Notes: generated by a model from the letters alone, not told the origin. Shown: positions 11,763 through 52,327, counted from the first letter of the stretch. The stretch: DNA of 64,000 bases from Anaerosalibacter bizertensis (GCF_009696605.1 NZ_VULR01000001.1:1-64000), one strand, 5' to 3'. Program-made: numbers and translations.

Positions 11763-11864
11763 ATTATCACTCCTTAATTAATTTATTTTATATAACCTTT
11801 TAGTTGACAGGTTTTAAGTCATCTTTTCTTTTAATTATGTGTTACATTATCTTAATAAAGTGTA

Positions 11865-12448: not shown

Positions 12449-12464
12449 TTTCCATCACCATCAA

Positions 12465-13869: not shown

Positions 13870-13888
13870 TATCCACCTCATTTATTAA

Positions 13889-13901
13889 TCATGAATCATG
13901 A
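13889..13901. promoter_or_regulatory. Candidate operator dyad upstream of the LacI-type gene
   Basis: TCATGA-N-TCATGA, a perfect dyad with a single central base. It lies about 20 bases before the start codon and some 28 bases downstream of the -10 element, a sensible place for autoregulation by a LacI-family dimer. Binding is inferred from position and symmetry only. Confidence 0.4.
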
Positions 13902-13929
13902 ACAAAATATAATTATAAATATCTTGTAT

Positions 13930-13959
13930 ATTATATCATATTATCTACGATATATGCAA
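13930..13959 (-). promoter_or_regulatory. Promoter of the LacI-type gene
   Basis: TTGCAT (13954-13959) and TATAAT (13930-13935) on the minus strand, 18 bases apart. The rest of the gap between the LacI-type and MarR genes (about 13960-14064) is AT-rich without a visible feature. Confidence 0.6.
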
Positions 13960-14064
13960 TAAAACTACTATAAGTTTAAAGACTTCATTTAAGTTTTCAA
14001 TAAAACTTTTATTTTTATTAAATTTATATCAATTAGAGATTATTTTAATAAATATATATCTACT

Positions 14065-14508: not shown

Positions 14509-14621
14509 AAAAATCTCCTCCATTGTTTTTTGTATTTATCATATTATAAACTATTTGAGCTTTAGCCAAACATATTTTTTATTATATAAGTATTTATAAG
14601 AAATAGTATTTGATATTATAG

Positions 14622-14646
14622 AAAAAAGCAGATTAATCTGCTTTTT
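14622..14646 (-). terminator. Terminator of the gdpD-dgk pair
   Basis: AAAAAGCAGATTAATCTGCTTTTT, a perfect inverted repeat directly after the lipid kinase stop codon; a T run follows on the minus strand. Confidence 0.75.
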
Positions 14647-14647
14647 G

Positions 14648-15535: not shown

Positions 15536-15562
15536 GGGTACCAGCCTTTCCTAATCTAATAA

Positions 15563-16288: not shown

Positions 16289-16341
16289 TTAAATCCCCCC
16301 TCTAAAAATACATCTATATCTATTATACACTTTTTATATTA

Positions 16342-16389
16342 AAAAAAATATAAAAAGTAAGAAATAGGGAGAGTTCCCCCTATTTCTTA
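16342..16389 (-). terminator. Terminator of the 64-residue gene
   Basis: Stem TAAGAAATAGGG/CCCTATTTCTTA (16358-16369 and 16378-16389), then CTTTTTATATTTTTTTT on the minus strand. It overlaps the stop codon of the gene. Confidence 0.8.
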
Positions 16390-16574
16390 TTTTCTATACC
16401 TTTTAACATTTTTTGAAGTTTACGCGCTTGATGACCACATTCTTCTGCAAAATCTTTAAAAGCTTTAGCTATTTCAGTATCATGAACTTGTTTAGATTGT
16501 GTTTCAAAATCTCTTACCATCTCTTGTGTATCCAATATTTTTTTCTTGATAATTTCTTTTGTATTCATTTCCAT
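16380..16574 (-). CDS. Small helical protein, function unknown
   Basis: 64 residues, highly charged and predicted all-helical, with no Cys pairs or membrane segment. An ideal ribosome site, GGAGGTGAT, sits 4 bases before the ATG, and a strong terminator follows, so this is a real monocistronic gene. Spaced acidic and His residues (DFAEECGHQ) faintly recall the ferritin/rubrerythrin helical fold, but that is only a resemblance. Confidence 0.7.
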   Translation of the reverse strand: MEMNTKEIIKKKILDTQEMVRDFETQSKQVHDTEIAKAFKDFAEECGHQARKLQKMLKGIENKK

Positions 16575-16718
16575 ATAATCACCTCCAAGTAATATCTACT
16601 AATATCTTTTCTTATTAAATGTTTTTTATGTGTTTATATTTAATATTTAAAGCTTTACTTATCTTTAATTTTAAAGTAAAATAATCTCAGTATAATTTTA
16701 AAAATAGGAGTGTATAAA

Positions 16719-17519
16719 ATGTACGATTTTCATATTCACAGTGATTTCTCTATGGATTGTAAATATTCTATGGAGGATATGGTGTTGGAAGGAATAAGAA
16801 AAAATATGAGATCTTTATGCTTTACTGACCATATTGAATTTCAAGTTACGGAAAAAAAAATAGATATTGCTTTCCGAACAAAAGATTATTTTAGGAAAGC
16901 TAATCAAATTAAATATAAATATTTTAAAGATATTGAGATTTTAACTGGGGTTGAAATAGGAATGCAACCCCATCTAAGTAAACAATATAATTCCTTTCTA
17001 AATAAAGAACGTTTTGATTTTGTTCTCATGTCAATTCATTCTGTAGGAGGAAAAGATATATGCTTTGATGGCTTTTTAGATGGAAAAGATCCTACTGAAG
17101 CTATTTTAAAATACTATGAGAATATTTTAAATTGTGTGGAAAACTTTTGCAATTATGATATATTAGGCCATGTTGATTTAATAGATAGATATTTTGAAGA
17201 CTTTTCTCTCATTCCTGAAACAAAAGAATATATAGACTTAGTAGAAAATATATTTAAAGTAATTATTTCTTCAGGAAAGGGGATTGAACTAAATACTTCA
17301 GGAATAAGATATGGATTAAAATATTATCATCCAAAAATCGAATTATTAAAACTCTATAAGAAATTGGGAGGAGAAATTATAACCATAGGTTCAGATGCAC
17401 ATAAACCAGATTTTGTTGGCTATGATTATAAAAAAGCAGAAAAATTATTAAGAGATTTAGGTTATAAATATATATTTATATTTAGAGATAGAAAAAAATT
17501 TCCAATTCAAATAGCCTAG
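16719..17519 (+). CDS. PHP-domain phosphoesterase, histidinol-phosphatase (HisJ) family
   Basis: 266 residues of the PHP superfamily: DFHIHSDFSMD at the N-terminus, CFTDHIEF (about 36), GVEIGMQ (about 78), SIHSVGG (about 108), LGHVDL (about 151) and the final metal motif GSDAHKPDFVG (about 225). These supply the multinuclear metal site. A GTG at 16710 overlaps the AGGAG ribosome site, so the ATG at 16719 is preferred. No other his genes are nearby; a role as a general phosphoesterase remains possible. Confidence 0.85.
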   Translation: MYDFHIHSDFSMDCKYSMEDMVLEGIRKNMRSLCFTDHIEFQVTEKKIDIAFRTKDYFRKANQIKYKYFKDIEILTGVEIGMQPHLSKQYNSFLNKERFDFVLMSIHSVGGKDICFDGFLDGKDPTEAILKYYENILNCVENFCNYDILGHVDLIDRYFEDFSLIPETKEYIDLVENIFKVIISSGKGIELNTSGIRYGLKYYHPKIELLKLYKKLGGEIITIGSDAHKPDFVGYDYKKAEKLLRDLGYKYIFIFRDRKKFPIQIA

Positions 17520-32116: not shown

Positions 32117-32149
32117 AATAAAACTCTCCGAAAATCGGAGAGTTTTATT
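32117..32149. terminator. Bidirectional terminator between sdaAA and nfnB
   Basis: 15-bp stem AATAAAACTCTCCGA/TCGGAGAGTTTTATT with an AAA loop. Confidence 0.85.
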
Positions 32150-33540
32150 TATTTATTATATTTTTCTTTTATATATTTATCTATAGATGCTGCTGCTTTT
32201 TTGCCTGCTCCCATAGCAAGTATAACCGTTGCAGCACCAGTTACTGCATCTCCACCAGCAAACACACCTTCTCTAGATGTTTGTCCATTTTCATCTGCTA
32301 CTATACATCTTCTTCTATCTATTTCAAGGCCTTCTGTAGTTGATGGTATAAGTGGATTTGGTGATGTTCCAAGGGACATAATAACAGTATCTACCTCAAA
32401 TTCAAACTCAGTACCTTCAATAGGCTCTGGTCTTCTTCTTCCTGATTTATCTGGTTCGCCAAGCTCCATTCTTATACATCTAATACCCTTTACCCAACCC
32501 TTTTCATCTGCAAGTATTTCTATAGGATTGGTTAGAAGTTCAAAGTTTATACCTTCTTCTTTAGCATGATGAACTTCTTCCACTCTTGCTGGTAACTCTT
32601 CTTCAGACCTTCTATAAACTATCCAAACTTCAGCTCCTAATCTTTTAGCAGTTCTAGCAGCATCCATTGCAACATTTCCGCCACCTACTACTGCAACTTT
32701 GTCTCCTACTTTTATAGGTGTATCATAATTTTTTCTAAAAGCCTTCATAAGGTTATTTCTTGTTAAAAATTCATTTGCTGAAAATACTCCATTAAGATTT
32801 TCTCCAGGTATTCCCATAAATTTAGGTAAACCAGCACCTGAGCCTATAAATACTGCATCAAAACCTTCTTTTTCCATAAGATCTGCTATAGTTACAGTTC
32901 TACCTACTACTACATTAGTTTCTATTTTCACTCCGAGCTTCTTTAAGTTTTCTATCTCTTTTTTAACAACTTTTTCTTTTGGCAATCTAAACTCAGGTAT
33001 TCCATATACTAGAACTCCACCTGCTTCGTGAAGGGATTCAAATATAGTTACATCATATCCTTCTTTAACCAGATCTCCTGCACAAGTAACTCCAGCAGGT
33101 CCTGAACCTATAACTGCTACTTTATGTCCATTCTTTTCTTTAACTTCTCCTACTTGTATATTATGTTCTCTTGCCCAGTCTGCAGCAAATCTTTCTAATT
33201 TTCCAATAGATACCGGATCCCCTTTATGCCCAAGAACACAAGTCTTTTCACATTGTTCTTCTTGAGGGCAAACCCTTCCACAAACTGCAGGAAGAGCACT
33301 ATACTTAGCAAGAATTTGAGCTGCTTCTGCAAAATTACCTTCTGCTATTTCTTTAATAAATGCTGGTATATCTATAGATACAGGACAATTTCCTCTACAA
33401 GCAGGTTTCTTACAGTTTAAACAGCGCTTTGCTTCAGCTATAGCCTCTTCTTCTGTATATCCAAGACATACTTCATCAAAGTTTTTTATTCTTTCTTCCG
33501 GGTCTTGCACTGAAATTGGCACTCTTTTAAATCTATCCAT
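32149..33540 (-). CDS. nfnB: NADH-dependent ferredoxin:NADP+ oxidoreductase, large subunit (NfnB)
   Basis: 463 residues, related to glutamate synthase small subunit. Two N-terminal Cys clusters carry [4Fe-4S] centres: CLNCKKPACRGNCP (about 40) and CGRVCPQEEQCEKTC (about 88). Rossmann motifs follow: AVIGSGPAGVTCAG (about 148, FAD) and VAVVGGGNVAMDAARTAKRLG (about 283, NADPH). Glutamate synthase could use the same protein, but the adjoining NfnA gene (sharing one base at TAATG) marks it as the electron-bifurcating transhydrogenase, which couples NADH and reduced ferredoxin to make NADPH reversibly. Confidence 0.9.
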   Translation of the reverse strand: MDRFKRVPISVQDPEERIKNFDEVCLGYTEEEAIAEAKRCLNCKKPACRGNCPVSIDIPAFIKEIAEGNFAEAAQILAKYSALPAVCGRVCPQEEQCEKTCVLGHKGDPVSIGKLERFAADWAREHNIQVGEVKEKNGHKVAVIGSGPAGVTCAGDLVKEGYDVTIFESLHEAGGVLVYGIPEFRLPKEKVVKKEIENLKKLGVKIETNVVVGRTVTIADLMEKEGFDAVFIGSGAGLPKFMGIPGENLNGVFSANEFLTRNNLMKAFRKNYDTPIKVGDKVAVVGGGNVAMDAARTAKRLGAEVWIVYRRSEEELPARVEEVHHAKEEGINFELLTNPIEILADEKGWVKGIRCIRMELGEPDKSGRRRPEPIEGTEFEFEVDTVIMSLGTSPNPLIPSTTEGLEIDRRRCIVADENGQTSREGVFAGGDAVTGAATVILAMGAGKKAAASIDKYIKEKYNK

Positions 33541-34415
33541 TATTTAGCACCTCCTTCAGTTTGTTTACATCTGCATTCATATTGTTCATCTTTTTCACAT
33601 TCTTCATTTTTATATTGAGCTTGTCTTTTCAAAGCTTCATCAAAATCTACAAGATGACCATCAAATTCCGGACCATCTACACAAGCAAATTTAGTTTCAT
33701 TTCCAACTGTAACCCTGCAAGCACCACACATTCCTGTACCATCTACCATTATAGGATTAAGACTAACAACCGTATCTATCCCTAATTCATCTGTAAGCTT
33801 ACATACAAATTTCATCATTATCATTGGTCCAATTGCTATTACTTTATCGTAATGTTTTCCTTGATTTTTTACAAGTTCTTCAATTAAACCAGTTACCATA
33901 CCATTAAATCCATAACTTCCATCATCAGTTGCTATATAAAGATTTCCTGCTACACTTTTAATTTTATCTTCTAGAATTATCATTTCCTTATTTTTGGCTC
34001 CAACTATTACATCAACATCAATACCATTTTCATGGAACCATCTTACCTGTGGATAAACAGGAGCTGCGCCAACTCCTCCAGCTACAAATAAATATTTTTC
34101 TTTCTTCAATTTCTCAATATCTTCATTTACATATTCTGATGGTTGTCCAAGAGGACCTACAAAATCTTTAAAATACTCTCCCTCATTGTATCTAGCCATT
34201 TTTTTAGTAGAACAACCCATAGATTGAACTACTATAGTAACTGTTCCTTTTTCCTTATCATAATCACATATAGTTAGAGGAACCCTTTCTCCCTGCTCAT
34301 CAGCTATAACAATAACAAATTGTCCTGGCTTAGCTGACTCAGCTACCCTTGGAGCTAAAATATCCATGGAAAAGATATTTGGTGCTAAACTTTTCTTTTC
34401 TACAATTTTGAACAA
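33540..34415 (-). CDS. nfnA: NADH-dependent ferredoxin:NADP+ oxidoreductase, small subunit (NfnA)
   Basis: 291 residues of the dihydroorotate dehydrogenase PyrK/ferredoxin reductase family: FAD domain (about 1-100, with RVPLTICDYD), NAD-binding domain (about 100-215, VAGGVGAAPVYPQ) and a [2Fe-2S] site, CGACRVTVGNETKFACVDGPEFDG (Asp ligand feature of Nfn; about 235-258). It ends in a Cys-rich tail (CEKDEQYECRCK). TTG start with GGAGG upstream. No pyrD is nearby, which supports Nfn over PyrK. Confidence 0.9.
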   Translation of the reverse strand: MFKIVEKKSLAPNIFSMDILAPRVAESAKPGQFVIVIADEQGERVPLTICDYDKEKGTVTIVVQSMGCSTKKMARYNEGEYFKDFVGPLGQPSEYVNEDIEKLKKEKYLFVAGGVGAAPVYPQVRWFHENGIDVDVIVGAKNKEMIILEDKIKSVAGNLYIATDDGSYGFNGMVTGLIEELVKNQGKHYDKVIAIGPMIMMKFVCKLTDELGIDTVVSLNPIMVDGTGMCGACRVTVGNETKFACVDGPEFDGHLVDFDEALKRQAQYKNEECEKDEQYECRCKQTEGGAK

Positions 34416-35631: not shown

Positions 35632-35663
35632 AAAAAAAGATAGAGTCTACAAATACGACTCTA
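35632..35663 (-). terminator. Terminator of the glucan locus
   Basis: TAGAGTC/GACTCTA stem with a 9-base loop, followed on the minus strand by TCTTTTTTTATA. The stem overlaps the stop codon of the giant gene, so it ends that operon ahead of xpt. Confidence 0.8.
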
Positions 35664-38600
35664 CTTTATGCTTTCCTAAAACTACTTCTATATGATGACT
35701 TTTATAGTCATTTATTAATTTCACATAGTTTTCATCTAATAAAATCCCATCTAATTTTATATATCCTATACCAGTATTTAATTTATATGGATTTCTCACT
35801 TCTATATTATAAATAGTTTCAAAATATTTATATTTTATATTGTACTTATCCCAATTTTTAGGAATACAAGGATTTATATATAAATTTTCTCCTTCTAATC
35901 TAAAACCTAATATATGCTCTAAGCCTACTTTATAAATCCATCCTGAAGAGCCAGTATACCACGTCCATCCTCCTCTTCCTATATGAGGGCTAACCCCATA
36001 TACATCGGCTGCCATTACATAAGGTTCCGCTTTATACTTTCCACATTCAATTAAAGTTCTTGTGTGATTAATAGGATTTATAATATTGAATAGTTTAAAA
36101 GCTTTATCTCCTTCTCCCATAAGTGCAAAAGCTCCTATGACCCAAGCAGCCGCATGAGTATATTGTCCTCCATTCTCCCTTACTCCTGGGACATAACTTT
36201 TTATATATCCAGGATCTAGTTCTCCACTATCAAATGGTGGACTTAGAAGTAGTATCATCCCTTCCTCTGCTTTCACAAGATATTCTTCTACTGATTTCAT
36301 AGCTTTTTGATTTCTATCTTTAGTACCAAGACCAGATAATACTGCCCAAGTCTGAGCAATAGAATCTATCCTACATTCTTCATTCTCTTTTGAACCTAAA
36401 ACATTTCCGTCATCAAAATATGCTCTTAGATACCAATCCCCATCCCATCCATTTTTTTCTATAGATTCTTTTATATTATTTATTAGCTCTTCATATCTTT
36501 TTGATCTATCTAGGTCTCCAACTTTTTTACATATAGGTACAAATTTGCTTAAAATACTTCCTAAGAACCATCCTAGCCAGATACTTTCTCCTTTGCCTTT
36601 ATACCCTACTTTATTCATTCCATCGTTCCAATCACCTGATCCCATAAGAGGAATGCCTCTTTCTCCAAACTTGAGGGATTTTTCAATAGCTTTTATACAA
36701 TGTTCATAAACGGTACCAATTTTTTCAGACATATTTGGTACTTCATATCTCTCTTGTTCTTCACTACTAAGAATTACACTTTCAATATAAGGAACTTTTT
36801 CTTCCAGGATAGAATAATCTTCAGTAATCATTAAATATTCTGCTACTACAAAAGGTAGCCATAACAAATCATCTGAATACTTACTTCTAATCCCTTTGTG
36901 AACCTTATCCATAGGGTTAGGATGCCACCAATGCTGTATATCTCCTTCCACGAACTGATGTCTACAATTATTTATAATTTGTTTTTTGCATTCTTCTGGA
37001 GCTATATATAAACAGTTCATCACATCTTGAATTTGATCCCTTCCACCAAAAGCACCACCCACTTGGTAAAATCCTGTTCTGCCCCAAAGTCTAGAAACTA
37101 TAGTTTGATACATTAGCCAATTATTCATAATTAGATTCATAGAAAGTTCAGGAGTATCTATTTGAATCTTTTCCAGTTTCTCCTTCCAATACTCTTTAAC
37201 TTTAGTTAGCTCTTCTTTAGCCTTATCTAATTTTCTATATCTTTTAATCATAGAATATCCATTCTCTACACTACCACTTTCACCTAAAACCATAACCAAT
37301 TCCTTTTCACTTCCACTAGGAATAGTTACTTCAACTTCAATAGACGAACAAGGATCATATCCTATACCTACAGTATTAGAAAGCCTTTCCTTTTTCAGAG
37401 CTTCTGGATCTTCTAATGAGCCTAAATCTCCTATGAATTCTCTCCTATTTCCTGTATAACTTTTAATTTTCTCTGAAGTTCCAATGAAAATACTACTGTT
37501 TCTAAAATCTACATTTGTTGAGTTTTTTATTAAAAATATTTCTTCTTTTTCATCCATATCAGTTTCAATAAATTTATCTGTAATTTCATCTGTTACACCT
37601 AGTACAGGTCTTACAAAGTATACTAAAGTTAACTTTCTTTCAAAACTTGAATGGTTTTTTAATTTAATTAAATTCATCTTAATATTATGATCTAAAGCTG
37701 TGTATAGAGTTAGTTCTTGTTCAATGCCTTGGCTAAAATGATTAAATTTAGAATACCCCTGCCCATGAGTAATAACATAGTCTTCTTTTTCTCTAATAGG
37801 AGAAGAGGTTATATTCCAAATATAACCAGTGTCATCATCTCTTAAGTATATTATTTCTCCTGGTAAATTCACTACAGCATCATTGTACCAAGGAGTCAAT
37901 TTATTTTCCCTGCTATTATGTGCCCAGCTAAAACCTGCACCAGTTTCTGAAACTATAAATCCAAAATTTCTATTAGCTATAACATTTATCCAAGGAAGAG
38001 GTGTATTTAAGCCTTCAGTAAGCTTTATAATATATTCGCTTCCTCCTTTTGCAAACCCTCCATAACCATTGAAATATTCAAGGTCTAATTCTTTTTCAAT
38101 AGTAGGATAATCTTTCCTTATTCCAGTAAAAGTTTTGTCAGGAATATATTCTTCCTTTTCAAGTTTCTTTTTTAATCCTTCTTCTGCATCAATTATTAAG
38201 GATGCCCATTTAAATAATAATGCTCTGTCCTCATAAGGCATATTATTAGATTTTCTAATATATATATTGCTACTATTTCTACCGCATTCAAATACAGTTT
38301 CCTGAATACTTTCATACAATGGTTCATAATAAGAACTTTCATATTCACATAGTATAACTAAATCTACTTCTAATCCTTTAAAAAACCAGTAGCCATGAGC
38401 TCTTAATATTTTCTTCAAGTTTTCTAATCCTTCCAAGCTCCGTATTATTATGAGAACAATAGGAATATCCCCAGAAATTCCATAAGCCCATAACCCTTCC
38501 TGTCCTTTAAAACTTTCTTTTATAATATCTCTATATTTAATAATATTTGTATTATTAAAAAATACTAGACTAGAAACCAATTCATCGTATAATTTTAAGT

Positions 38601-41600
38601 CATCCCCTTTGTAAGTTAAATATCCAATCTCTGCTTGACTTCTAGTATGAGCTAATTCAAAGGCCTTAGAAAAGCTGATTTCATCATTATATTTTTTGAA
38701 AAGTTTGATTGCTCCTTCTTTAGTGCTGTCTATTCCAGTTACAAAGTAAATTTCTTTACTTTCTCCGCTTTTAACTTTTACTCTTCTTTTAAGGCTCATT
38801 ATTGGATCTAAAACAGCACCTGTTGTATTGGTAAGTTCTTTAAATAATCCTTGGGGATTTGATAGTTTATTCCCTCTACCAATAAAATTAAATCTATTAG
38901 TTTCATATTCAAATGCTATTTCATCTTTATCTTCATTCCCTATGCCATGAACTATATATACTATATCCTGGTCTTCTCTTCTCTTCCTTCTGTAGGCTAT
39001 AATGCCCTTACTATCTTCTATCTCTTCTGTCCTTATAAATAAATTATTAAATACAGGATGAGATATATCTGCATCTAAAAGATCTCCCACTATTTCAAAA
39101 TAACTACACACTTCAAGTAAAGCGTCTTCTTCACCATTGTTTGTTAATGTAACCTTTCTAATCTCCCCGTCTTCTTCAGATAATAAAACTATATCCATTC
39201 TAGTTTCTATATAACCATCTTTTCTATAAAAACTTACTTTATCATTAGAAAAATAAACTTTATATTCATCTGGTTCTACCTTAGTAGGCTCATAGGTTGT
39301 AGACCAATACCTGTTCTCTGTTAAATTATTTATATATATAAACTTTCCATATTGATTTACTAATTCTTCTTTTCTCCATCTATTTATAAAAATATTATCC
39401 TTCTTTGAATATCCTAATCCTTTATTAGTAATCATTGTTGAGTAATCTCCTGAAGCCAATATATGACAGTGTGTATTTTTTAAATCCTCCTTATCATATA
39501 TTCTTCCTAAGTTTAAATGTCTTTTTTCTTCCTGGTATTCTATATCTACTAGATTTTCTTTTTCTTTGGCCACAACTACTTTCATAGGTATTTTTTCTTG
39601 CAATAAAAGCTCCCCTGTTTTCATTTCAGGATTTCTATGAAATCTATCTATTAAAATTTCTCCATTTAAAAAATTATTTATAGATAGAAATATCATACCT
39701 TGATGATGTGTCATATAGCTTTTTACTATTCCTTTATCCATGTTTTGTGGAAGCCTTCTAGTAGTAAAATCTATAGCCTCGTATAATCCATATTTTCCAT
39801 CCATTTGTTCTTTGACTAAATTATCTACATTAGATATAACGGATTTAGGATTAAATTTTATAGCAAGAATAGAGGAATATGGGGATATTACTAAATCTTC
39901 TTTAAGACCTCTTTTAAAACCTAACTGGGGAACCCCAAAAGCCTTATATTGATAATTTAAGTTTACATCAAAAGCAAAAAATCCTGATTCAGATATTCCC
40001 CAAGGAAGATTTTTATCACTGCAATAATTCTCTTGTACCCTTATAGCTGTATTATAGGTTTCATCTAATAAAGTGTTTTTATAATTTTTCATAATTAGTG
40101 TAGGCATTAAATATTCAAACATAGTTCCAGTCCAAGAAGCTAATCCTCTATATCCATCTTTCTCAATTAAAGTTCTTCCTAATTTAAACCAGTGCTTCAC
40201 AGGAACTTCTCTTCTGCATATAGCAATATAACTAGTAGTCCTTGCTTCTGAAGCTAATAGGTCATAATAAGAATCTAATAATTCTTTTTTCTCAACAATA
40301 TATCCTACAGAAAATAACTCTTTCTCTTCATTATATAAAGGTCTAAAATCCACTTCATCTATTAACCTTTCTATTCTGGATATTAGATTTTCAATATTAT
40401 CTATAGCTCTTTGTGTATTTTTATATAAAACTTTTATATTTTCATCTTCAGTATCTTTTAAAAGTTTTTCGTAATATGTTTTTAAATCTAAAAGGGAGTA
40501 TTTATTATTTTCATCTAGTATATAATCTCTATACTCTTTTAATAAAGCCTCAACCCTGCTTAAACTTTTAATAGCCCATTTATCTTTATTAAGGTCAATA
40601 TTATTATTTAGTCTATCTTTTAGCTCTTTCAATCCATCTATACTTATATCTTCTATTTCTTCAACTTGAGCAACTATTTCCGACTTTAATTCTTCATCTT
40701 CTATTAAATTTATAGTATCTTTTAATCCTTGTAGATCTTTTTTATCTATCAATGGATTTCTTAAGTACTCTTTAAGACCTTCTCTTAATGCATAAAGGTA
40801 AGAAATAAAATTACCACTATCTACTGTAGATACAAAGTAAGGACGTAATGGCTCTAAGTCTGTTGTACTATACCAATTGTACAAATGTCCTTCCCATTTC
40901 TCCATTTTTTCTACTGAAGAAATAGTCTTATCAAGTAATTTTGCCATTTCTGATATGGTTATATATCCTAAATCTTTAGCAGATAAAATCCCTACCCATA
41001 AAAATCCTATATTAGTTGGAGATGTTCTATAAGCTACTCCATTATAAGGATATTCTTGATAGTTATCTGGAGGTAGAAAATTATTCTCTTCATTTGTAAA
41101 CATCTCATAATAATCCCAAGTCTTTCTTGCTATCTCCCTTAAATAATTAGTTTCTATTTTAGGTTTTTCCTCTATATCTTCTTTACTAATAAAATAAGCT
41201 ATTATAGGAGATCCGATCCATAGTATCACAATGATTATTGATGCATATATATTTTTTATATTAAGTAAAAAAGTTAATCCAATTGTAGCAAGCCCTATTA
41301 AAACACTACTTCTCATTCTTAAAAAGAAACTTTTTAAATCATTTTTAAGCCTCTTCTCCATATCAAAAGCAGTAGTCCATTGAAGTAAATTTTTCTTTGA
41401 AAAAAACACTCTATAAATTGTTCTTAAAATAGCATCTACCATCATATACCCTTCATAAGGTAAAAATATAAAAGAAAGTACTCCTTGATAGAAGCTACCC
41501 TTTACACCTGTTATTATATTTCCATTTAATTTTAATTTACTTATAAGATTGTTTCCATATAGTATATGTTCCATCAATGTAATTATAAAAGGTGTAAATA

Positions 41601-44052
41601 TAGCAAGTAACCCTACCATTATCCAAAAATATATACTTCCAGGAAAAATAGTTAAACCAAATATTATTGTAAGAAGTACACTTACAGGAACTAAACTTCG
41701 CCTCATATTGTCCACTATTTTCCACTTGGAAATTGACGATATAGGATTTCTTCTATTGCTCTTAAGCCATCTAATTAATTGCCAATCTCCACGGACCCAT
41801 CTATGGAGTCTCATTATATAAGAATTATACTTTTCTGGATATCCATCTATTAACTCAACATCTGTTGCTAATCCTGCCCTGACATAACAACTTTCTAATA
41901 AATCATGACTTAATACTGCATTTTCAGGTATAGAATCTTTTAAACATGTTTGAAAAACCTTTAGATCATATATTCCTTTCCCTGTGAATATTCCTTCTCT
42001 AAATAAATCTTGATATATATCAGATACAGCTGTAGTATAAGGGTCTATTCCACCTTGTCCTGCATATATCCTAGTAAATAATGATTTATTTGAACTTTCA
42101 ATATCTATAGAAATTCTAGGTTGAATTATTCCATAACCTTCCGTTACAATATTTTTCTCACTATCAATTATTGCTGAATTTAATGGATGAGCAATTGTAC
42201 CTACAAGTTTTTTTGCTGATTCTAAAGGCAGTTTGGTATCAGCATCTAACGTGATTATATATTTTATTTTATTTTTTAATGAAGATATATCACTAGATAT
42301 CACTGAATAAGTAGTATCTTCATTTCCTAATATTAACTCATTAAATTCTACTAGTGCTCCTCTTTTTCGTTCCCATCCCATCCACTTTTCTTCACCATCA
42401 GAATATACTCTATCCCTGTGAAAATAATAGAATATCTTCTCATTTTTACTATATTTATTATTTAATTCTTCAATAGCTTGTAAACCTTTTTGAATTATCT
42501 TTTCATCTTCTTTTTCCTTTTCTAATTGACCATCTTTGAAATCCCCAATTAAACCAAAATACAAATTCTTTTCTCCATTGGATAGATAATGAATCTCTAA
42601 TTGTTTTACCAATTCTTCTACCCTTTTTTCATCTGTTAAAAGGGTAGGTATGACTATAAAAGTTTTAAATTTATCTGGTATTCCATCTTTAAACTCTAAT
42701 TTTGGCAAATGTATTGGAGAAAACTTCTTAGAAAATATTGTATTAAATATCCCTATAGATATATTAGAAGCAGGAACTAATGTTGTTAATCCAACTAATA
42801 TTGCCATAACTATATTACTTGTTGCATAAGCATATCTTCCAAATAAAAATACAAGAAACAATGTAAAGAGAACTACAGGAAGAGTATAATATTTTTCACT
42901 CTTTAAATAAAATCCTGTTCTTTTTTCCTTTTTATTTAAACTATTAAAAATTTCTTCTCTTCCATCATCTATAATATAATATCCTACATGACTTTCTTTA
43001 CCTTTATTTCCATTTTCATATTCATTTCTAGCTAGCTCTAATGCTTTTTTAGCTATAAAGATTTCCTTTGTATTTAATTTTTCAGCCAATTCCTGAACAT
43101 GGTGTATATAATAATTTTTTGATTCTAAATCCATATTTCTATAAACTTCTAAAGGATCTTCTTTCAGTGTCTTTTCTACAATACTTAATGATTCAAATAT
43201 ATTGACCCATTTTAAATTTGAAATGTTTTTTAAACTAATTATGCTATTACCTATTTTTAATTTCATATTGGCCTGTTTAATATGTTCTTTTTCTATTATT
43301 TTTTCAACTGTAGTACCAAGATAGTTAAGTCTTCTTTCAAACGAAAATATACTTTGTTGTGTCTCTTCTTTTTTTATTCTAACAAATAATCTTTCTAAGA
43401 AGGATGAACTTATTTCTTCCATTTCTTCAATATACTTTTCTATATCTCTAATTTGAGACAGATCTATTTCATTAGCCTTTTGCCATTGATTGCTTATATT
43501 TTCAATTTTAGTGCAAATATTTCGAATATAATTCATTAAAGCTAAAGTTAGCATAAGTGGCAAAGAAGAAACTTCTTTAATAGATAAAGTACTTTCCTCT
43601 TGATAAGAATTTATAAAATCTATTAAAGTTTCCTCTGTAACAACACCTTCTGTATGAGATATTAGCTCTACTGCTAATATATAGATTCTAGGACAATTTC
43701 TAAATACTCCATTTTCTAAAGTATTTAGCTCTAACCCTCTTTCTTCTTCTAAACTTTGTCTTATCTTTTTATATTGAAGTTCTATTATATAAAAATTATC
43801 CAGAAGCCATTCTGAAGCTTTAGGCAAGTCCTTATTTCTGCTTAACATTGTATTTAATTTCAAGTATATTTTTTCAATATATTTAAAGTTTTTGTCTAGA
43901 TTGAACATTAGAAAATTTTTTACATCAGTTTTTTTTCCTATTTTATGATTTCTTCCTAGCTCTCTACCATGTTTCAATAGTTCTTCTCTGGACAAAAGTA
44001 TATCTTCAGTCTCTATAACACAGGTTTTCTTTCCTCTTAAATATTTCCGCAT
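35647..44052 (-). CDS. ndvB: Cyclic beta-1,2-glucan synthase-like protein (NdvB type)
   Basis: 2,801 residues, the length of Brucella/Sinorhizobium cyclic glucan synthases. Domains in order: soluble helical N-terminus (1-380); membrane segments (about 385-440); GT84 glycosyltransferase (about 465-780) with LDADTKLP (about 602) and WVRGDWQLIRWL (about 757); more membrane segments (about 787-950); a glycoamylase-like domain (about 985-1500; YRTSPTNIGFLWVG, GLASWTGTMFEYLMP); GH94-type domains to the end, with GAFGGRDQIQDV (about 2340) and the acid GSGDWNDGMN (about 2470). In proteobacteria the GT makes beta-1,2-glucan from UDP-glucose, and the GH94 part trims it during cyclisation. Follows the nucleotidyltransferase fusion by 26 bases. 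Confidence 0.88.
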   Translation of the reverse strand: MRKYLRGKKTCVIETEDILLSREELLKHGRELGRNHKIGKKTDVKNFLMFNLDKNFKYIEKIYLKLNTMLSRNKDLPKASEWLLDNFYIIELQYKKIRQSLEEERGLELNTLENGVFRNCPRIYILAVELISHTEGVVTEETLIDFINSYQEESTLSIKEVSSLPLMLTLALMNYIRNICTKIENISNQWQKANEIDLSQIRDIEKYIEEMEEISSSFLERLFVRIKKEETQQSIFSFERRLNYLGTTVEKIIEKEHIKQANMKLKIGNSIISLKNISNLKWVNIFESLSIVEKTLKEDPLEVYRNMDLESKNYYIHHVQELAEKLNTKEIFIAKKALELARNEYENGNKGKESHVGYYIIDDGREEIFNSLNKKEKRTGFYLKSEKYYTLPVVLFTLFLVFLFGRYAYATSNIVMAILVGLTTLVPASNISIGIFNTIFSKKFSPIHLPKLEFKDGIPDKFKTFIVIPTLLTDEKRVEELVKQLEIHYLSNGEKNLYFGLIGDFKDGQLEKEKEDEKIIQKGLQAIEELNNKYSKNEKIFYYFHRDRVYSDGEEKWMGWERKRGALVEFNELILGNEDTTYSVISSDISSLKNKIKYIITLDADTKLPLESAKKLVGTIAHPLNSAIIDSEKNIVTEGYGIIQPRISIDIESSNKSLFTRIYAGQGGIDPYTTAVSDIYQDLFREGIFTGKGIYDLKVFQTCLKDSIPENAVLSHDLLESCYVRAGLATDVELIDGYPEKYNSYIMRLHRWVRGDWQLIRWLKSNRRNPISSISKWKIVDNMRRSLVPVSVLLTIIFGLTIFPGSIYFWIMVGLLAIFTPFIITLMEHILYGNNLISKLKLNGNIITGVKGSFYQGVLSFIFLPYEGYMMVDAILRTIYRVFFSKKNLLQWTTAFDMEKRLKNDLKSFFLRMRSSVLIGLATIGLTFLLNIKNIYASIIIVILWIGSPIIAYFISKEDIEEKPKIETNYLREIARKTWDYYEMFTNEENNFLPPDNYQEYPYNGVAYRTSPTNIGFLWVGILSAKDLGYITISEMAKLLDKTISSVEKMEKWEGHLYNWYSTTDLEPLRPYFVSTVDSGNFISYLYALREGLKEYLRNPLIDKKDLQGLKDTINLIEDEELKSEIVAQVEEIEDISIDGLKELKDRLNNNIDLNKDKWAIKSLSRVEALLKEYRDYILDENNKYSLLDLKTYYEKLLKDTEDENIKVLYKNTQRAIDNIENLISRIERLIDEVDFRPLYNEEKELFSVGYIVEKKELLDSYYDLLASEARTTSYIAICRREVPVKHWFKLGRTLIEKDGYRGLASWTGTMFEYLMPTLIMKNYKNTLLDETYNTAIRVQENYCSDKNLPWGISESGFFAFDVNLNYQYKAFGVPQLGFKRGLKEDLVISPYSSILAIKFNPKSVISNVDNLVKEQMDGKYGLYEAIDFTTRRLPQNMDKGIVKSYMTHHQGMIFLSINNFLNGEILIDRFHRNPEMKTGELLLQEKIPMKVVVAKEKENLVDIEYQEEKRHLNLGRIYDKEDLKNTHCHILASGDYSTMITNKGLGYSKKDNIFINRWRKEELVNQYGKFIYINNLTENRYWSTTYEPTKVEPDEYKVYFSNDKVSFYRKDGYIETRMDIVLLSEEDGEIRKVTLTNNGEEDALLEVCSYFEIVGDLLDADISHPVFNNLFIRTEEIEDSKGIIAYRRKRREDQDIVYIVHGIGNEDKDEIAFEYETNRFNFIGRGNKLSNPQGLFKELTNTTGAVLDPIMSLKRRVKVKSGESKEIYFVTGIDSTKEGAIKLFKKYNDEISFSKAFELAHTRSQAEIGYLTYKGDDLKLYDELVSSLVFFNNTNIIKYRDIIKESFKGQEGLWAYGISGDIPIVLIIIRSLEGLENLKKILRAHGYWFFKGLEVDLVILCEYESSYYEPLYESIQETVFECGRNSSNIYIRKSNNMPYEDRALLFKWASLIIDAEEGLKKKLEKEEYIPDKTFTGIRKDYPTIEKELDLEYFNGYGGFAKGGSEYIIKLTEGLNTPLPWINVIANRNFGFIVSETGAGFSWAHNSRENKLTPWYNDAVVNLPGEIIYLRDDDTGYIWNITSSPIREKEDYVITHGQGYSKFNHFSQGIEQELTLYTALDHNIKMNLIKLKNHSSFERKLTLVYFVRPVLGVTDEITDKFIETDMDEKEEIFLIKNSTNVDFRNSSIFIGTSEKIKSYTGNRREFIGDLGSLEDPEALKKERLSNTVGIGYDPCSSIEVEVTIPSGSEKELVMVLGESGSVENGYSMIKRYRKLDKAKEELTKVKEYWKEKLEKIQIDTPELSMNLIMNNWLMYQTIVSRLWGRTGFYQVGGAFGGRDQIQDVMNCLYIAPEECKKQIINNCRHQFVEGDIQHWWHPNPMDKVHKGIRSKYSDDLLWLPFVVAEYLMITEDYSILEEKVPYIESVILSSEEQERYEVPNMSEKIGTVYEHCIKAIEKSLKFGERGIPLMGSGDWNDGMNKVGYKGKGESIWLGWFLGSILSKFVPICKKVGDLDRSKRYEELINNIKESIEKNGWDGDWYLRAYFDDGNVLGSKENEECRIDSIAQTWAVLSGLGTKDRNQKAMKSVEEYLVKAEEGMILLLSPPFDSGELDPGYIKSYVPGVRENGGQYTHAAAWVIGAFALMGEGDKAFKLFNIINPINHTRTLIECGKYKAEPYVMAADVYGVSPHIGRGGWTWYTGSSGWIYKVGLEHILGFRLEGENLYINPCIPKNWDKYNIKYKYFETIYNIEVRNPYKLNTGIGYIKLDGILLDENYVKLINDYKSHHIEVVLGKHKVESYL

Positions 44053-44078
44053 CTAACTCATCCCTTTCAACTGCTAAT

Positions 44079-46523
44079 CTATGTAGAGTCTTTCCTTATC
44101 ATCTTTCTTATCTTTTTATCATAAAAATCAGATAATTCTTCAGCATATTCCTCTGATAAACCCTCTACATATATATTGAACACAGGTTTTTCATTGTCTG
44201 GTAGAACTAAAACCCATCCTCTATCTTCTACAATTCTTGCCCCTTCAAAAGTTTCTATAACATCATTATCTTCTTCAATAAGCTTTCTAAGCACTTCTCC
44301 TTTATCTTCCCATTTACAAGGAACTTGTTTTTCTAAATAATAATATCTGGGTAATTCATCTATTAAGCTAGTTAAAGAAATATCATTTCCTACTAAGAAA
44401 TCTATTATTTTTCCTACTCCCCATATAGCATCAAAGTTTAATATATATTGACTTATACAATTTCTATTTATTATTTCAGTCATAATATCTGAAATATTCG
44501 TCTTTGCTATATGAACTTTTCCATTAAACTTTTCTGCCATCTCTTCTACAACTCTTGGAAAATTATATGGCACAATAACCTCTTCAATTTCTCCAGATTT
44601 AAATCCTATTAAAGTAGTGAATAATAAAAATTCTTCTTCAGTTAATATTTTTCCATTACTTTCTATTAGAATTAAATCCTCTCCATCTTCACTAAATACT
44701 ATTCCTAAATCAAATTTTTCTTTTTTCACTTCTTCAGATAAAATTTCCATTGATTTTTTTCCATAAAAGTCAGTTGTTTTTACATTACAACCAATGCTCT
44801 CTAAATACTCTTTAGCAAGAGTTATTATATTATGGGATTTTGAACTAATTAAGATATTAGGGGACTTTCTTTTTATTTTGTTAATATTTTTTAATATTTT
44901 TTTACCTTCTTCTATGTATATAGAAGAAAAATTATACATCTTAACTATATCCTTAACCCTTTTTCCACTACATCTTTTGAAATCTTCAATAGCAAAGGTA
45001 TTTTCAATTTTTCTTTCTAAATTTCTACTTATATTAACACCGTTACTATCAAGTAATTCTATATGAATTTTATTTCTATCCAAAGAATCTACCTTAACTT
45101 GTATTCCTCCGCTAGCTTGAAATTTTTTTACTGCAAATCTACACATAGGAAGGGAAGCTTCCTCTATATCTATCACCTTGGCACCTGTTGAAAGTACACC
45201 AGCTATCAAAGAGTTTTTAATTAAATTAGATGAATTGTACTCATCGCAACTTATTATAAACGTTCCACTTTCTTTGATTGTTGAGGCAAAAGCTGTCCCT
45301 AATTTAGACGCAAATTCAGGTGTAATATCTATATTTGCATCTCCTGATATATCTCTATATCCGAATATATTCTTTGAAGCCTTTGAGCTCCAAATTAAAT
45401 TTTCTTGTACTACTGCACCTTCTTCTACTGTTTTATATGGCCATATTTTTATATTAGGATTTATAGTTGAATTTGCTAAGAGTTTCGAATTACTTCCTAT
45501 TACTGCTTCTTCATAGATTTTAACTTGTTCTTCAATTTGTACCAAATCGCATACAACACTTTTTCTAAGCTCTACATTATCTGATACAAATACCTTATCC
45601 CATAAAATACTTCTTTTTAATGATGAGTTTTTACGTATATGACAATTATCTCCGATTACACTATAAGGCTCTATAATAGTATTGTCTTCTATAATAGTAT
45701 TATCTCCAATATAAACTGGTGGAATTAACTTCACTCCATTTCCTAATGAAGTCCCATCTCCAATCCATATTCCATCTTTTATTTCTTTCGACTTAAATTT
45801 CATTTCTATTTTTTTATTTAGTAAATCTTCATGGGTTTTTATATATGAATTTAAATCCCCTATATCGCACCAATATTCATGGGTTACATAACCATACATA
45901 GGGACATTGTCTTTCAAAAGTCTTGGAAATAGATCTTTGCTAAAATCAAAATTCTCACCTTTTTTATAATAGTCTAGTACTTCTGGTTCCAATATGTATA
46001 TACCAGTATTTATAGTATCGCTAAATACTTCTCCCCAACTAGGCTTTTCTAAAAATCTTGTTATCTTACCATTTTCATCTGTTATTACTACACCATACTC
46101 TAACGGTATAGGTTCTTTTTTCAATATAAGAGTAGCTTTAGAATTTCTTTCTTTGTGAAAATTTAAAGCTTTTTCAATATCTATATTAGTAAAAGCATCA
46201 CCACTTACAACTATAAAAGTATTGTCAAGAAAATCTTCTGCATTTTTCACACTTCCACCTGTGCCTAATGGTGTTTCCTCTATATAATAATCCATATTTA
46301 CACCAAATCTTTTACCATCGCCAAAATATTCCGTTATCATTGCAGGTAGATAGTGTAAAGTTACAGCTATATCATTTATATTGTACTTTTTTAAAAGATC
46401 TACAGTGTATTCCATGACTGGTTTATTGAATATGGGTACCATTGGTTTTGGAATACGACAAGTAAGAGGTCGTAATCTAGTTCCTTGACCACCAGACATT
46501 ATTACAGCTTTAATTTTAATCAC
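44079..46523 (-). CDS. Sugar-1-phosphate nucleotidyltransferase fused to a degenerate phosphomutase domain
   Basis: 814 residues. N-terminal NTP transferase (1-235) with AVIMSGGQGTRLRPLT, FNKPVMEYTV, VVSGDAFTNID and EYWCDIGD; left-handed beta-helix hexapeptide repeats (about 250-375); a phosphohexomutase-like region (about 385-800). In the last, the active-site TASHNP is replaced by VKVDSLDRNK, so it is probably not a mutase; similar fusions elsewhere are annotated mannose-1-phosphate guanylyltransferase. It may instead make UDP- or GDP-glucose for NdvB. The GTG at 46523 overlaps the AAGGAG ribosome site; the best-spaced codon, and the one at the family's start position, is ATT at 46514. Confidence 0.85.
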   Translation of the reverse strand: MIKIKAVIMSGGQGTRLRPLTCRIPKPMVPIFNKPVMEYTVDLLKKYNINDIAVTLHYLPAMITEYFGDGKRFGVNMDYYIEETPLGTGGSVKNAEDFLDNTFIVVSGDAFTNIDIEKALNFHKERNSKATLILKKEPIPLEYGVVITDENGKITRFLEKPSWGEVFSDTINTGIYILEPEVLDYYKKGENFDFSKDLFPRLLKDNVPMYGYVTHEYWCDIGDLNSYIKTHEDLLNKKIEMKFKSKEIKDGIWIGDGTSLGNGVKLIPPVYIGDNTIIEDNTIIEPYSVIGDNCHIRKNSSLKRSILWDKVFVSDNVELRKSVVCDLVQIEEQVKIYEEAVIGSNSKLLANSTINPNIKIWPYKTVEEGAVVQENLIWSSKASKNIFGYRDISGDANIDITPEFASKLGTAFASTIKESGTFIISCDEYNSSNLIKNSLIAGVLSTGAKVIDIEEASLPMCRFAVKKFQASGGIQVKVDSLDRNKIHIELLDSNGVNISRNLERKIENTFAIEDFKRCSGKRVKDIVKMYNFSSIYIEEGKKILKNINKIKRKSPNILISSKSHNIITLAKEYLESIGCNVKTTDFYGKKSMEILSEEVKKEKFDLGIVFSEDGEDLILIESNGKILTEEEFLLFTTLIGFKSGEIEEVIVPYNFPRVVEEMAEKFNGKVHIAKTNISDIMTEIINRNCISQYILNFDAIWGVGKIIDFLVGNDISLTSLIDELPRYYYLEKQVPCKWEDKGEVLRKLIEEDNDVIETFEGARIVEDRGWVLVLPDNEKPVFNIYVEGLSEEYAEELSDFYDKKIRKMIRKDST

Positions 46524-46602
46524 TCCTTGCTTTCTTTTATCGTATACATTATTGTTTCATATAAGTGGGAAATATATTCATAAAAGTCATTTTTTCGTAA
46601 CA

Positions 46603-46648
46603 ATAAAAAAGCTAAGGTTTTAAACTATAGTTTAAAACCTTAGCTTTC
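46603..46648 (-). terminator. Terminator of pgcA
   Basis: A 40-base perfect palindrome, AAAGCTAAGGTTTTAAACTA arms, followed by TTTTTTATTG on the minus strand. It separates pgcA from the nucleotidyltransferase fusion, so the glucan genes lie in two transcripts. Confidence 0.85.
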
Positions 46649-46665
46649 TATTATTATTTAAAATA

Positions 46666-48357
46666 TTACTTCACAGATTTTATTCTTTCAATTACAGCTT
46701 CTTCAATAGCTTCTATTTGTTTTAAAGATTCTTCTTCGCTATCTGCTTTTGAATAAATATATATTTTTATCTTAGGTTCCGTTCCTGATGGTCTTATGGC
46801 ATACCAAGCTTCTGTATCAAATATATATTTAAGTACATTTGAAGGAGGTGTACCTGTATTTCCTTCTAAATAATCTATGGTCTTTACAAGATTATTATTT
46901 CCTATACTTTTAATAGCTTTATCTCTAAAGGAATCCATTATTCTTCCTATTCTTTCCTGCCCCTCTATACCTTCTAAAACTATTGATATTAATTTTTCTT
47001 TATAATAACCATGTTCTTTATACAATTCTTCTAATATATCTAAAAGGGTTTTTCCTCTTTTTTTATAATAGGCAGCCATTTCAGCAATAAGCATACTGGA
47101 TATAACTCCATCCTTATCCCTTACTATAGTATCATATACATATCCAATACTTTCTTCATATCCAAAGATAAAAGTATGCTCTTTAGTCTTATCAAATTCA
47201 TTTGCCTTTCCACATATATGCTTAAATCCTGTTAAAGTATCTATGGTTTCTATACCATACTTTTTAGCAATTGATTTACTTAAATCTCCAGTTACTATAG
47301 ATTTAACTATCACTCCATCATTAGGTAAATTTCCTTTTTTGTATCTAGACCCTAAAATATATTCAACTAATAGAGCTCCCGTTTGGTTTCCATTCAAAGG
47401 AATGAAATCCCCTTCACTATTCCTTACAACACAAGCTACCCTATCACAATCTGGATCTGTTGCTATTAATAAATCAGCTTCTACATTCTTTCCTAACGCT
47501 TCTGCGTATTCAAAAGCTTTCACATCTTCTGGATTTGGATATCCTACTGTAGTAAAATCTGGATCTGGATTTTCTTGTTCAGGTACTACTATAATATTTG
47601 TAAATCCTCTTTCTTTTAAAACCCTTCTTACAGGTTTGTTTCCTGTTCCATTTAATGGAGTATATACAATTTTAATTTCCTTATCTATATCATTGTTTAA
47701 AGCAAGAGATTTTACTTTCTCGATATATTCATCTTCCACATCTTTCCCTATAATATTTAACAAGCCACTTTCTTCTGCTTCTTTTCTTTCCATAATCTTT
47801 ATATCTGAAAAATCTTCTATATTTTTAATATTGTTTAAAATCTTTTCTGCAATATCATCTAGTATTTGGGAACCTTCTTCCCAATACACTTTATAACCAT
47901 TATAATCTCTTGGATTATGGCTAGCAGTTATTACTATTCCAGAAATAGTATTTAACTTTCTAACAGCAAAAGAAAGTTCTGGTGTAGGTCTTAAATCATC
48001 AAAAAGATATACCTTAATTCCATTTGCAGCCAATACTAATGAAGATATTTCTGCAAATTCTTTTGAAAAATGTCTTACATCATAGCCTATAACTACTCCC
48101 CTATTCATAGCCTCTTGACCAAAAGATTTTATTGTATCCGCAAGTCCTTGGGTTGCTAAGGAAACAGTATATCTATTCATCCTATTAGTTCCTGCTCCAA
48201 TTTTTCCTCTTAAACCAGCTGTTCCAAAAGATAAATCAGCATAAAATCTATCTTTTATTTCTTCATTATCCTCTTTTATAGATAAAAGCTCTTCCTTAGT
48301 TTTTTCATCAAAATATGGACTATTTAGCCACCTCTCATATTTTTTTATGTAATCCAT
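46666..48357 (-). CDS. pgcA: Alpha-phosphoglucomutase (phospho-sugar mutase)
   Basis: 563 residues, PgcA size. Interconverts glucose-6-phosphate and glucose-1-phosphate. An intact serine loop, GIVITASHNPRDYNGYKVYW (about residue 133), a metal loop ATDPDCDRVA (about 298), sugar loop FGYEESIGY and phosphate loop RPSGTEPKIK (about 524) are present, in contrast to the degenerate copy in the fusion protein. The frame opens at 48381, but GAGGAGGG is spaced 6 bases from the ATG at 48357. Lies 20 bases after the M20 peptidase gene. Confidence 0.94.
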   Translation of the reverse strand: MDYIKKYERWLNSPYFDEKTKEELLSIKEDNEEIKDRFYADLSFGTAGLRGKIGAGTNRMNRYTVSLATQGLADTIKSFGQEAMNRGVVIGYDVRHFSKEFAEISSLVLAANGIKVYLFDDLRPTPELSFAVRKLNTISGIVITASHNPRDYNGYKVYWEEGSQILDDIAEKILNNIKNIEDFSDIKIMERKEAEESGLLNIIGKDVEDEYIEKVKSLALNNDIDKEIKIVYTPLNGTGNKPVRRVLKERGFTNIIVVPEQENPDPDFTTVGYPNPEDVKAFEYAEALGKNVEADLLIATDPDCDRVACVVRNSEGDFIPLNGNQTGALLVEYILGSRYKKGNLPNDGVIVKSIVTGDLSKSIAKKYGIETIDTLTGFKHICGKANEFDKTKEHTFIFGYEESIGYVYDTIVRDKDGVISSMLIAEMAAYYKKRGKTLLDILEELYKEHGYYKEKLISIVLEGIEGQERIGRIMDSFRDKAIKSIGNNNLVKTIDYLEGNTGTPPSNVLKYIFDTEAWYAIRPSGTEPKIKIYIYSKADSEEESLKQIEAIEEAVIERIKSVK

Positions 48358-48377
48358 ACTATCCCTCCTCAAAATCT

Positions 48378-49568
48378 TCAATATCTAGTTAAAAAACTTA
48401 ATACATTTTTACATTGTAATAATACCCCAATTTTAAGACAGTTTTCATCAATATCAAATAGTGGTGTATGAGCCTCATGGACTATTCCATTCTCTTCATT
48501 TCTGGAGCCTAAATTGAAAAAAGCTCCTGGAACACTTTCTGCAAAATAGGAAAAATCCTCTACTCCAAAACTAGGATGTTTTATATTTATTATATTTTCT
48601 GCTCCAAGTAGATCCTCTCCATTATTATATACAATATCTACCATGCTGTCATTATTTATAAGGGAAGTATAACTTTTTTCCCGTATAACTTCACCTTTTC
48701 CACCCATTGATAAAGCTATGTTTTCAACTATATCTATTAATTCTTTCATAACTTTTTCTCTTGTAATTGGATCTAAAGTCCTTACTATACCCTCCATTTC
48801 AACTTTATCTGCTACTATATTCCTAGCTTCCCCTCCATGAATAGTCCCTATAGTTATTACTGCTGAATTTCTTGGATCTACTCTTCTACTTACAATAGTT
48901 TGAATAGTAGTTACTATTTGTGAAGCAATAGCTATAGCATCTATTCCTAAATCAGGATAGGCTCCATGACTATTTTTACCATGAATAATTATTTTAATCA
49001 TATCTGAACTAGCATTCATTTGACCATATCTTATACCTATTTCTCCTATTTCTATTCCATTAGATACATGAAGGCCAAATATTCCATCAACTTTTGGGTT
49101 TTCTAGAACTCCTTCTTCTATCATTGGTTTTGCTCCTCCCACAGTTTCTTCTGCTGGTTGGAAAATCAACTTTACATTTCCTTTAAATTTATCTTTAAGC
49201 TCATTAAGTACTTTAGCTGCTCCAAGTAATATGGCAGTATGTGCATCATGTCCACAAGCATGCATTTTTCCTTTTATTTTAGATTTATAAGGTATTTCTT
49301 TTTTATCTTCCATAGGAAGGGCATCTATATCTGCCCTTAAGGCCACAGTTTTCCCTCCTGCTTTTCCTTTAATAATACCTACAACTCCTGTATTTGCAAT
49401 ATCTTTTTCATATTCAATACCCATTTCTTCTAAATATTCTACTATCTTATCTCTAGTCCTGTATTCTTCCATTCCCAATTCTGGATACATATGAAAATCT
49501 CTTCTTGTCTTTATTAAAAAGTCTTCGATTTCATTAACCTTCTTCTCTAATTCTTTATTAGAAATCAT
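48378..49568 (-). CDS. M20-family amidohydrolase (N-acyl amino acid/hippurate type)
   Basis: 396 residues. Metal ligands and catalytic residues: MHACGHDAHTAIL (about 103), FQPAEETVGGAKPMIE (about 137), LHVSNG (about 168) and the late His in KHPSFGVEDFSYF (about 350); the insert domain lies between about 185 and 295. The family removes acyl groups from amino acids or cuts dipeptides in the cytoplasm. AGGAGG precedes the ATG. It is probably cotranscribed with pgcA, which has no evident functional link. Confidence 0.92.
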   Translation of the reverse strand: MISNKELEKKVNEIEDFLIKTRRDFHMYPELGMEEYRTRDKIVEYLEEMGIEYEKDIANTGVVGIIKGKAGGKTVALRADIDALPMEDKKEIPYKSKIKGKMHACGHDAHTAILLGAAKVLNELKDKFKGNVKLIFQPAEETVGGAKPMIEEGVLENPKVDGIFGLHVSNGIEIGEIGIRYGQMNASSDMIKIIIHGKNSHGAYPDLGIDAIAIASQIVTTIQTIVSRRVDPRNSAVITIGTIHGGEARNIVADKVEMEGIVRTLDPITREKVMKELIDIVENIALSMGGKGEVIREKSYTSLINNDSMVDIVYNNGEDLLGAENIINIKHPSFGVEDFSYFAESVPGAFFNLGSRNEENGIVHEAHTPLFDIDENCLKIGVLLQCKNVLSFLTRY

Positions 49569-51977: not shown

Positions 51978-52327
51978 TGGTGGAGACGGTGGGAGTCGAA
52001 CCCACGTCCGAAAGTACTTTATAAGGAGTTTCTCCGAGTGCAGCTATTGATTTAGTATTCGCTAAATATAACGCCCAATAGCAAGCTTTATATCTAGCTA
52101 TCTCCAAAGTCCACTATAGGTTGGAGAAGGCCTATAGCAGTTCCCCACTATAAATGACACTCTATTCTAGTAGGTGGGACTACTAGGTAGAGCGACAGCG
52201 TTTAAATTACGCTGCTAATGCTAAATTATCGTCTGCGTTTAAATTTAAGTGCCACTTTTTACGTTGTTTGGCGACAACGACTCGCTACTCCTTACTCCAT
52301 ACTCCCGTCGAAACCAGTTTCGTCCCC
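51978..52327 (-). ncRNA. ssrA: Transfer-messenger RNA (tmRNA)
   Basis: 350 bases. The 5' end GGGGACGAAACTGGTTTCGA and the 3' end GGTTCGACTCCCACCGTCTC-CACCA form the alanine tRNA-like domain with an encoded CCA. The tag frame reads GCA GAC GAT AAT TTA GCA TTA GCA GCG TAA (52226-52256 region), giving (A)ADDNLALAA, close to clostridial tags. It rescues stalled ribosomes and marks proteins for proteolysis. It lies 5 bases after smpB in the same direction, so the two are cotranscribed. Confidence 0.97.

Follow-up and report, generated by a model that had tools for sequence, protein, structure and literature searches.

A 64,000-nucleotide stretch of Anaerosalibacter bizertensis DNA (GCF_009696605.1, NZ_VULR01000001.1:1-64000; hereafter the window) carries an intact gene for a cyclic β-1,2-glucan synthase (CGS), directly preceded by a gene in which a sugar nucleotidyltransferase is joined to a mutase-like domain (hereafter the fusion). 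Our best explanation of this locus, which we hold at a probability of about 80%, is a CGS pathway with the fusion as partner. The tie of the fusion to CGS is the new part of the analysis and the one most worth following. Discussion of cyclic β-1,2-glucans has dealt nearly exclusively with Gram-negatives, in which they are periplasmic or host-interaction glycans; a 2025 review even calls Thermoanaerobacter italicus, the source of a characterised CGS domain, Gram-negative (PMC11842490). Matches to the GT84–GH189 part of CGS were found in 115 of 293 sampled genomes of the class Clostridia (~39%; genomes were requested at ≥90% completeness), and CGS is common in this lineage, yet little discussed. 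With a co-inherited candidate supplier of sugar nucleotide in many of these genomes, the role of the rings in cells without a periplasm becomes a testable question, and the fusion family, so far annotated only generically, gains a hypothesis of function.

The CGS gene and its catalytic residues

35647..44052 (-), CGS open reading frame (ORF), 2801 aa, ATG start, no internal stops
41800..42543 (-), GT84 catalytic region with D504, D603/D605, Y672, D717 and R751 by alignment
39703..40248 (-), GH189 catalytic core with E1269, E1313, E1355 and H1449/H1450 by alignment
36622..37038 (-), GH94 catalytic region with D2339 and D2477 by alignment
44079..46523 (-), nucleotidyltransferase–pseudomutase fusion, 814 aa, from Pfam, alignment and an AlphaFold model

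The initial annotation had described an intact NdvB-type gene with GT84, glycoamylase-like and GH94 modules, and the unbroken ORF and its near-full-length alignment to solved Cgs agree with that description. In phmmer searches of the PDB, the best solved relatives were the Agrobacterium Cgs/NdvB structures 8rf0 and 8rf9 (query 54-2741, E-value of 0, 1824 bits), and the middle part of the protein matched the cyclisation domain of T. italicus CGS (8wy1, E-value of 5e-167, 561 bits). Pfam placed the Glycoamylase domain (PF10091) at 1262-1475, the GH94 supersandwich in two stretches and the GH94 catalytic domain at 2288-2716. The GT84 part had no Pfam match, yet it could be aligned with the solved GT84 domain. 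By hydropathy, transmembrane helices lie at ~390-432 and ~787-955, flanking the GT domain as in Cgs, and all catalytic modules are predicted to face the cytosol. No other gene with PF10091 or a GH94 catalytic domain was found in the 2.46-Mb, 98%-complete genome.

We took catalytic residue numbers from A. tumefaciens (Atu; PMC10901819) and T. italicus (Ti; PMC10834661) and transferred them through alignments; the codon of CGS residue n starts at 44052-3*(n-1). In GT84, Atu D527 corresponds to D504, D624/D626 to D603/D605, the base D739 to D717, and R773 of the RW motif to R751. The primer tyrosine, Atu Y694, aligns with Y672 inside a GIDPY motif that is identical in Atu; this conserved residue is the predicted carrier of the growing glucan chain. 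For GH189, Ti E1356 (acid/base) corresponds to E1269, E1400 (helper) to E1313, E1442 (nucleophile) to E1355 and H1536/H1537 to H1449/H1450, while alignment of the cyclisation domain with Atu pairs D1104 with D1078 and E1300 with E1269. In GH94, Atu D2393 aligns with D2339 and the general acid Atu D2528 with D2477.

All published GT84, GH189 and GH94 catalytic residues that were checked are thus present in the window's CGS. Nearly all are also invariant in 17 full-length CGS relatives of the same order, the exception being one sequence (L055) in which E replaces D504 and the primer loop is divergent, although it contains a Tyr. The initial annotation had named two results that would speak against a synthase, namely loss of the GT84 Asp/QxxRW geometry or a protein that is a phosphorylase only; at the level of sequence the residues are retained and neither was found. 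The gene very probably encodes a working CGS. Judged by these alignments, the protein is a complete enzyme of the Agrobacterium/Brucella type and an ordinary member of its family. With A. tumefaciens Cgs/ChvB (8rf0, 8rf9; PMC10901819) it shares the domain order over the whole length, the GT, CY and GP catalytic residues, the primer tyrosine and the GT-flanking transmembrane segments. It differs in its setting: the host lacks the outer membrane marker, no NdvA/ChvA-type exporter adjoins the gene, and the fusion stands directly upstream instead.

Shorter CGS-like frames of ~1770-1890 aa with GT84–GH189 matches occur in eight genomes of the class (G090, G138, G247, G339, G308, G280, G207 and G332). 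They are possible natural variants that lack the GH94 module or have it encoded separately. In Herbinix hemicellulosilytica (L127), CGS is split into two adjoining ORFs, at 8498-14599 (2033 aa) and 14603-17044 (813 aa, the GH94 part), an arrangement that suggests a phosphorylase module able to work in trans.

The fusion gene and its tie to CGS

Within the order, 21 genomes carried CGS at full or contig-cut length, and the fusion was present in 20 of them; the one without it (G048) is a metagenome-assembled genome (MAG) of 82% completeness. None of the 39 other genomes had the fusion. By coordinates, the fusion adjoins the start of CGS in all 20 genomes that have both. Geosporobacter ferrireducens and Alkaliphilus pronyensis are cultured relatives in which the two genes stand side by side. 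Across the class, fusions at ≥36% identity were found in 71 genomes with CGS and in three without (Fisher p ~3e-33, a statistic that ignores phylogeny; the underlying lists include a few contig-cut fragments, e.g. G147). At ≥45% identity the counts were 44 and zero. When the 44 CGS-bearing families were compared, every sampled CGS genome had the fusion in 25 families and none had it in 17. CGS could be located in 62 fusion genomes, where the two genes were adjacent in 17, far apart on one contig in ten and on different contigs in 35. Co-occurrence thus persists without linkage.

The fusion comprises a sugar-1-phosphate nucleotidyltransferase domain (1-236), a left-handed β-helix (~250-370) and a phosphoglucomutase/phosphomannomutase-like domain (385-810). 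Across 31 aligned fusions, the GGxGTRLRP motif, the metal Asp, EKP and the second metal Asp are invariant or nearly so; these features are common to other sugar nucleotidyltransferases. The mutase loops for phosphoserine (TASHNP), metal (DxDxDR), sugar (GEES/GYEES) and phosphate (RxSGTEP) are missing from all 31. The nucleotidyltransferase half thus looks active and the mutase half catalytically degenerate, and because of this degeneracy the fusion would be unable to provide the mutase step. The initial annotation had correctly placed the fusion and a phosphoglucomutase gene upstream of CGS; what it did not bring out is that the mutase half of the fusion appears dead.

The AlphaFold model of the C-terminal half is a confident mutase fold (pLDDT mostly 85-95) that matches the archaeal phosphoglucomutases/phosphomannomutases 9du5 and 1wqa at target-normalised TM-scores of 0.84-0.85 and 24-25% identity, whereas all four loops of those enzymes are degenerate in the fusion. 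The N-terminal half was poorly modelled in places. Its structural match is tlr0611 (8x7s, 31-37% identity), which shares the nucleotidyltransferase and left-handed β-helix in a chain of ~390 residues without a mutase-like domain. Sequence searches likewise ranked tlr0611, a UTP-glucose-1-phosphate uridylyltransferase, first among solved structures for the nucleotidyltransferase domain (228 bits), ahead of a GDP-mannose pyrophosphorylase (143 bits).

The layout of transcripts upstream of CGS is given by three further features:

44053..44078 (-), gap of 26 bp from the fusion stop to the CGS start, with a Shine-Dalgarno-like purine stretch
46606..46649 (-), predicted terminator, a 20-pair hairpin then a T-tail, downstream of the phosphoglucomutase gene and upstream of the fusion
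46666..48381 (-), phosphoglucomutase/phosphomannomutase family enzyme in which the TASHNP, DPDCDR, GYEES and RPSGTEP motifs are intact

The short gap makes a two-gene transcript of fusion and CGS probable. The phosphoglucomutase gene had been assigned to a separate transcript, in keeping with the 20-pair hairpin and T-tail at 46649-46606, although a shuffled region would by chance hold ~4.5 sites of terminator-like form, the one seen here reaches 20 pairs.

Together, the phosphoglucomutase, the nucleotidyltransferase and CGS make plausible the earlier suggestion of a route from glucose 6-phosphate to β-1,2-glucan. In the pathway that we propose, the phosphoglucomutase encoded at 46666-48381 would convert glucose 6-phosphate to glucose 1-phosphate. 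From this the nucleotidyltransferase of the fusion, which probably shares a transcript with CGS, would make UDP-glucose. The GT84 domain would glucosylate its own Tyr672 and then lengthen the β-1,2-glucan, the GH94 domain would shorten the chain by phosphorolysis, and the GH189 domain would release it from the tyrosine and close the ring by transglycosylation. The fusion is a likely, though by no means certain, dedicated partner of CGS, most simply as supplier of UDP-glucose. Its dead mutase-like domain is probably a scaffold or a sensor of glucose 1-phosphate/glucose 6-phosphate, and the fusion would then probably be regulated. More tentatively, Clostridia may possess a dedicated cyclic β-1,2-glucan pathway in which the fusion, as committed CGS partner, meters UDP-glucose by sensing glucose phosphates, and in which the rings have a non-periplasmic role, for example as a cytosolic osmolyte or as stored carbon that the GH94 domain could recover.

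CGS in Bacillota and the host envelope

We confirmed at least 585 CGS relatives in a scan of a genome collection. Many of the best 80 of these came from Bacillota (e.g. Caldanaerobacter, Geosporobacter, Alkaliphilus, Clostridium and Desulfosporosinus), and several other phyla were represented as well. When 120 sequences were placed in a FastTree phylogeny, the CGSs of Bacillota, joined by one Fibrobacter MAG, stood apart from those of Pseudomonadota. Caldanaerobacter, a relative of the Bacillota species T. italicus, lies within the Bacillota part of this tree, and the CGS locus of Caldanaerobacter subterraneus (L058) lacks the fusion gene. In the host family, all six sampled genomes carry CGS at a conserved position.

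The cyclisation domain of T. italicus CGS, characterised in 2024, makes cyclic glucans with a degree of polymerisation of 17-26 (PMC10834661). The window's CGS belongs to the same Bacillota lineage and keeps all five catalytic or near-catalytic residues of this domain; T. italicus differs in being known from the isolated domain only. GT84 was also listed in a study of clostridial MAGs (PMC7229112). The initial annotation had pointed out that cyclic glucans are best known from proteobacteria. An exceptional status of CGS in a Gram-positive does not agree with its frequency in the class, its own Bacillota lineage and the Bacillota domain already characterised.

The host looks like a monoderm member of Clostridia. 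No Omp85 was found in its 98%-complete genome, of which ~2% may be missing, while the same search was positive in seven of the control genomes, all diderm or of the Thermotoga/Thermus type. The earlier premise of a cell without a periplasm is therefore reasonable.

Alternative explanations and the fate of the product

Several observations weigh against the proposed pathway. In the class, 44 CGS genomes lack a fusion at ≥36% identity, and the p value of the co-occurrence carries no correction for phylogeny. Fusions that are not adjacent to CGS sit amid housekeeping genes; no glycan theme was found around them, their neighbours being RNase J, CodY, an AAA+ ATPase, DUF881 and one GT4. In lineages without a linked fusion, the neighbours of CGS itself are varied (GH9, a peptidase, a decarboxylase). 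No NCBIfam model names the fusion, and a bona fide GalU is encoded elsewhere in the genome (413.7 bits, cut-off 326.8), so the fusion is not required for UDP-glucose as such. The fusion's best NCBIfam match is the mannose-1-phosphate guanylyltransferase family, at 231.6 bits and so far below its cut-off of 440. Both that match and the presence of GalU would suit a fusion that makes another activated sugar, such as GDP-mannose, for another glycan, its link to CGS reflecting a shared envelope or exopolysaccharide programme; related fusions at 29-35% identity in actinobacteria and other lineages point the same way. We consider this unlikely, as the fusion lies 26 bp from the gene of a UDP-glucose-consuming enzyme, co-occurs with CGS without any other constant glycan gene, and has a UTP-glucose-1-phosphate uridylyltransferase as closest solved relative of its nucleotidyltransferase. 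The product of CGS in A. bizertensis is likewise argued from sequence, and this leaves room for an enzyme that has lost one activity and yields only linear β-1,2-glucan, or is mainly a phosphorylase or processing enzyme. The short CGS-like ORFs of the class suggest that some members of the wider family may lack a domain. Such a loss is improbable here, given that the window's CGS retains every catalytic residue with a published role in the three domains, that the 17 relatives retain nearly all of them, and that an isolated Bacillota GH189 domain cyclised linear glucan without hydrolysis (PMC10834661).

As the best-studied CGSs are proteobacterial, the gene might be a recent horizontal acquisition from that group, perhaps non-functional in its new host. 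The separation of the Bacillota CGSs, even with one Fibrobacter MAG inside, from Pseudomonadota makes recent transfer from rhizobia unlikely, and with the conserved position in all six host-family genomes it leaves this origin scarcely credible; at present sampling we regard it as refuted. Export of the cyclic glucan is a serious possibility, if one at somewhat less than even odds; it concerns the fate of the product and is compatible with the pathway proposed above. The membrane domain of CGS could itself carry the glucan out, or the task could fall to a MATE-type transporter or to a general ABC exporter whose gene lies elsewhere. The genome encodes several MsbA-like exporters, and an ABC exporter lies beside CGS at several Mesorhizobium, Aminobacter and Rhizobium loci. 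Among relatives in the order, one lineage (L042, 17240-19997, (-)) has a pair of ABC exporter genes immediately upstream of fusion and CGS, a candidate exporter there, and MATE-family genes occur near CGS in six relatives (L048 14592, L049 15605, L055 2342, L040 1431, L041 17144 and L050 1757). By mutual identity these MATE genes fall into three subfamilies, and the window holds no homologue of any of them. Across Bacillota CGS loci, no transporter recurs consistently. We accordingly rejected a constant transporter partner of CGS.

The initial annotation saw no cyclic-glucan exporter, and a search for an Ndv-type exporter gave the same picture: for the host ABC exporters that we examined, the best-scoring models were MsbA-like, and none exceeded ~55% of the cut-off for chvA or PRK13657. 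An osmoregulated periplasmic glucan system of Proteobacteria is recognised by an NdvA/ChvA-type exporter to the periplasm; here we found exporters below these cut-offs and no Omp85 in the ~98% genome. The view that the cell must export its product was not borne out, as the catalytic domains are predicted to lie in the cytosol and CGS genes of Bacillota have no regularly linked exporter. The β-1,2-glucanase that had been proposed as a search target did not appear: the genome contains no free GH144/GH189-type (PF10091) glucanase, second GH94 enzyme or MdoG/OpgG/OpgD homologue, GH162 not having been searched.

Elsewhere in the window, positions 32149-34415 hold an NfnAB-like pair (sulfide/dihydroorotate dehydrogenase-like and GltA-type subunits). 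Many relatives conserve this pair a short way downstream of CGS, most of them with a xanthine phosphoribosyltransferase gene in between. A tmRNA gene with the tag ADDNLALAA is located at 51978-52327.

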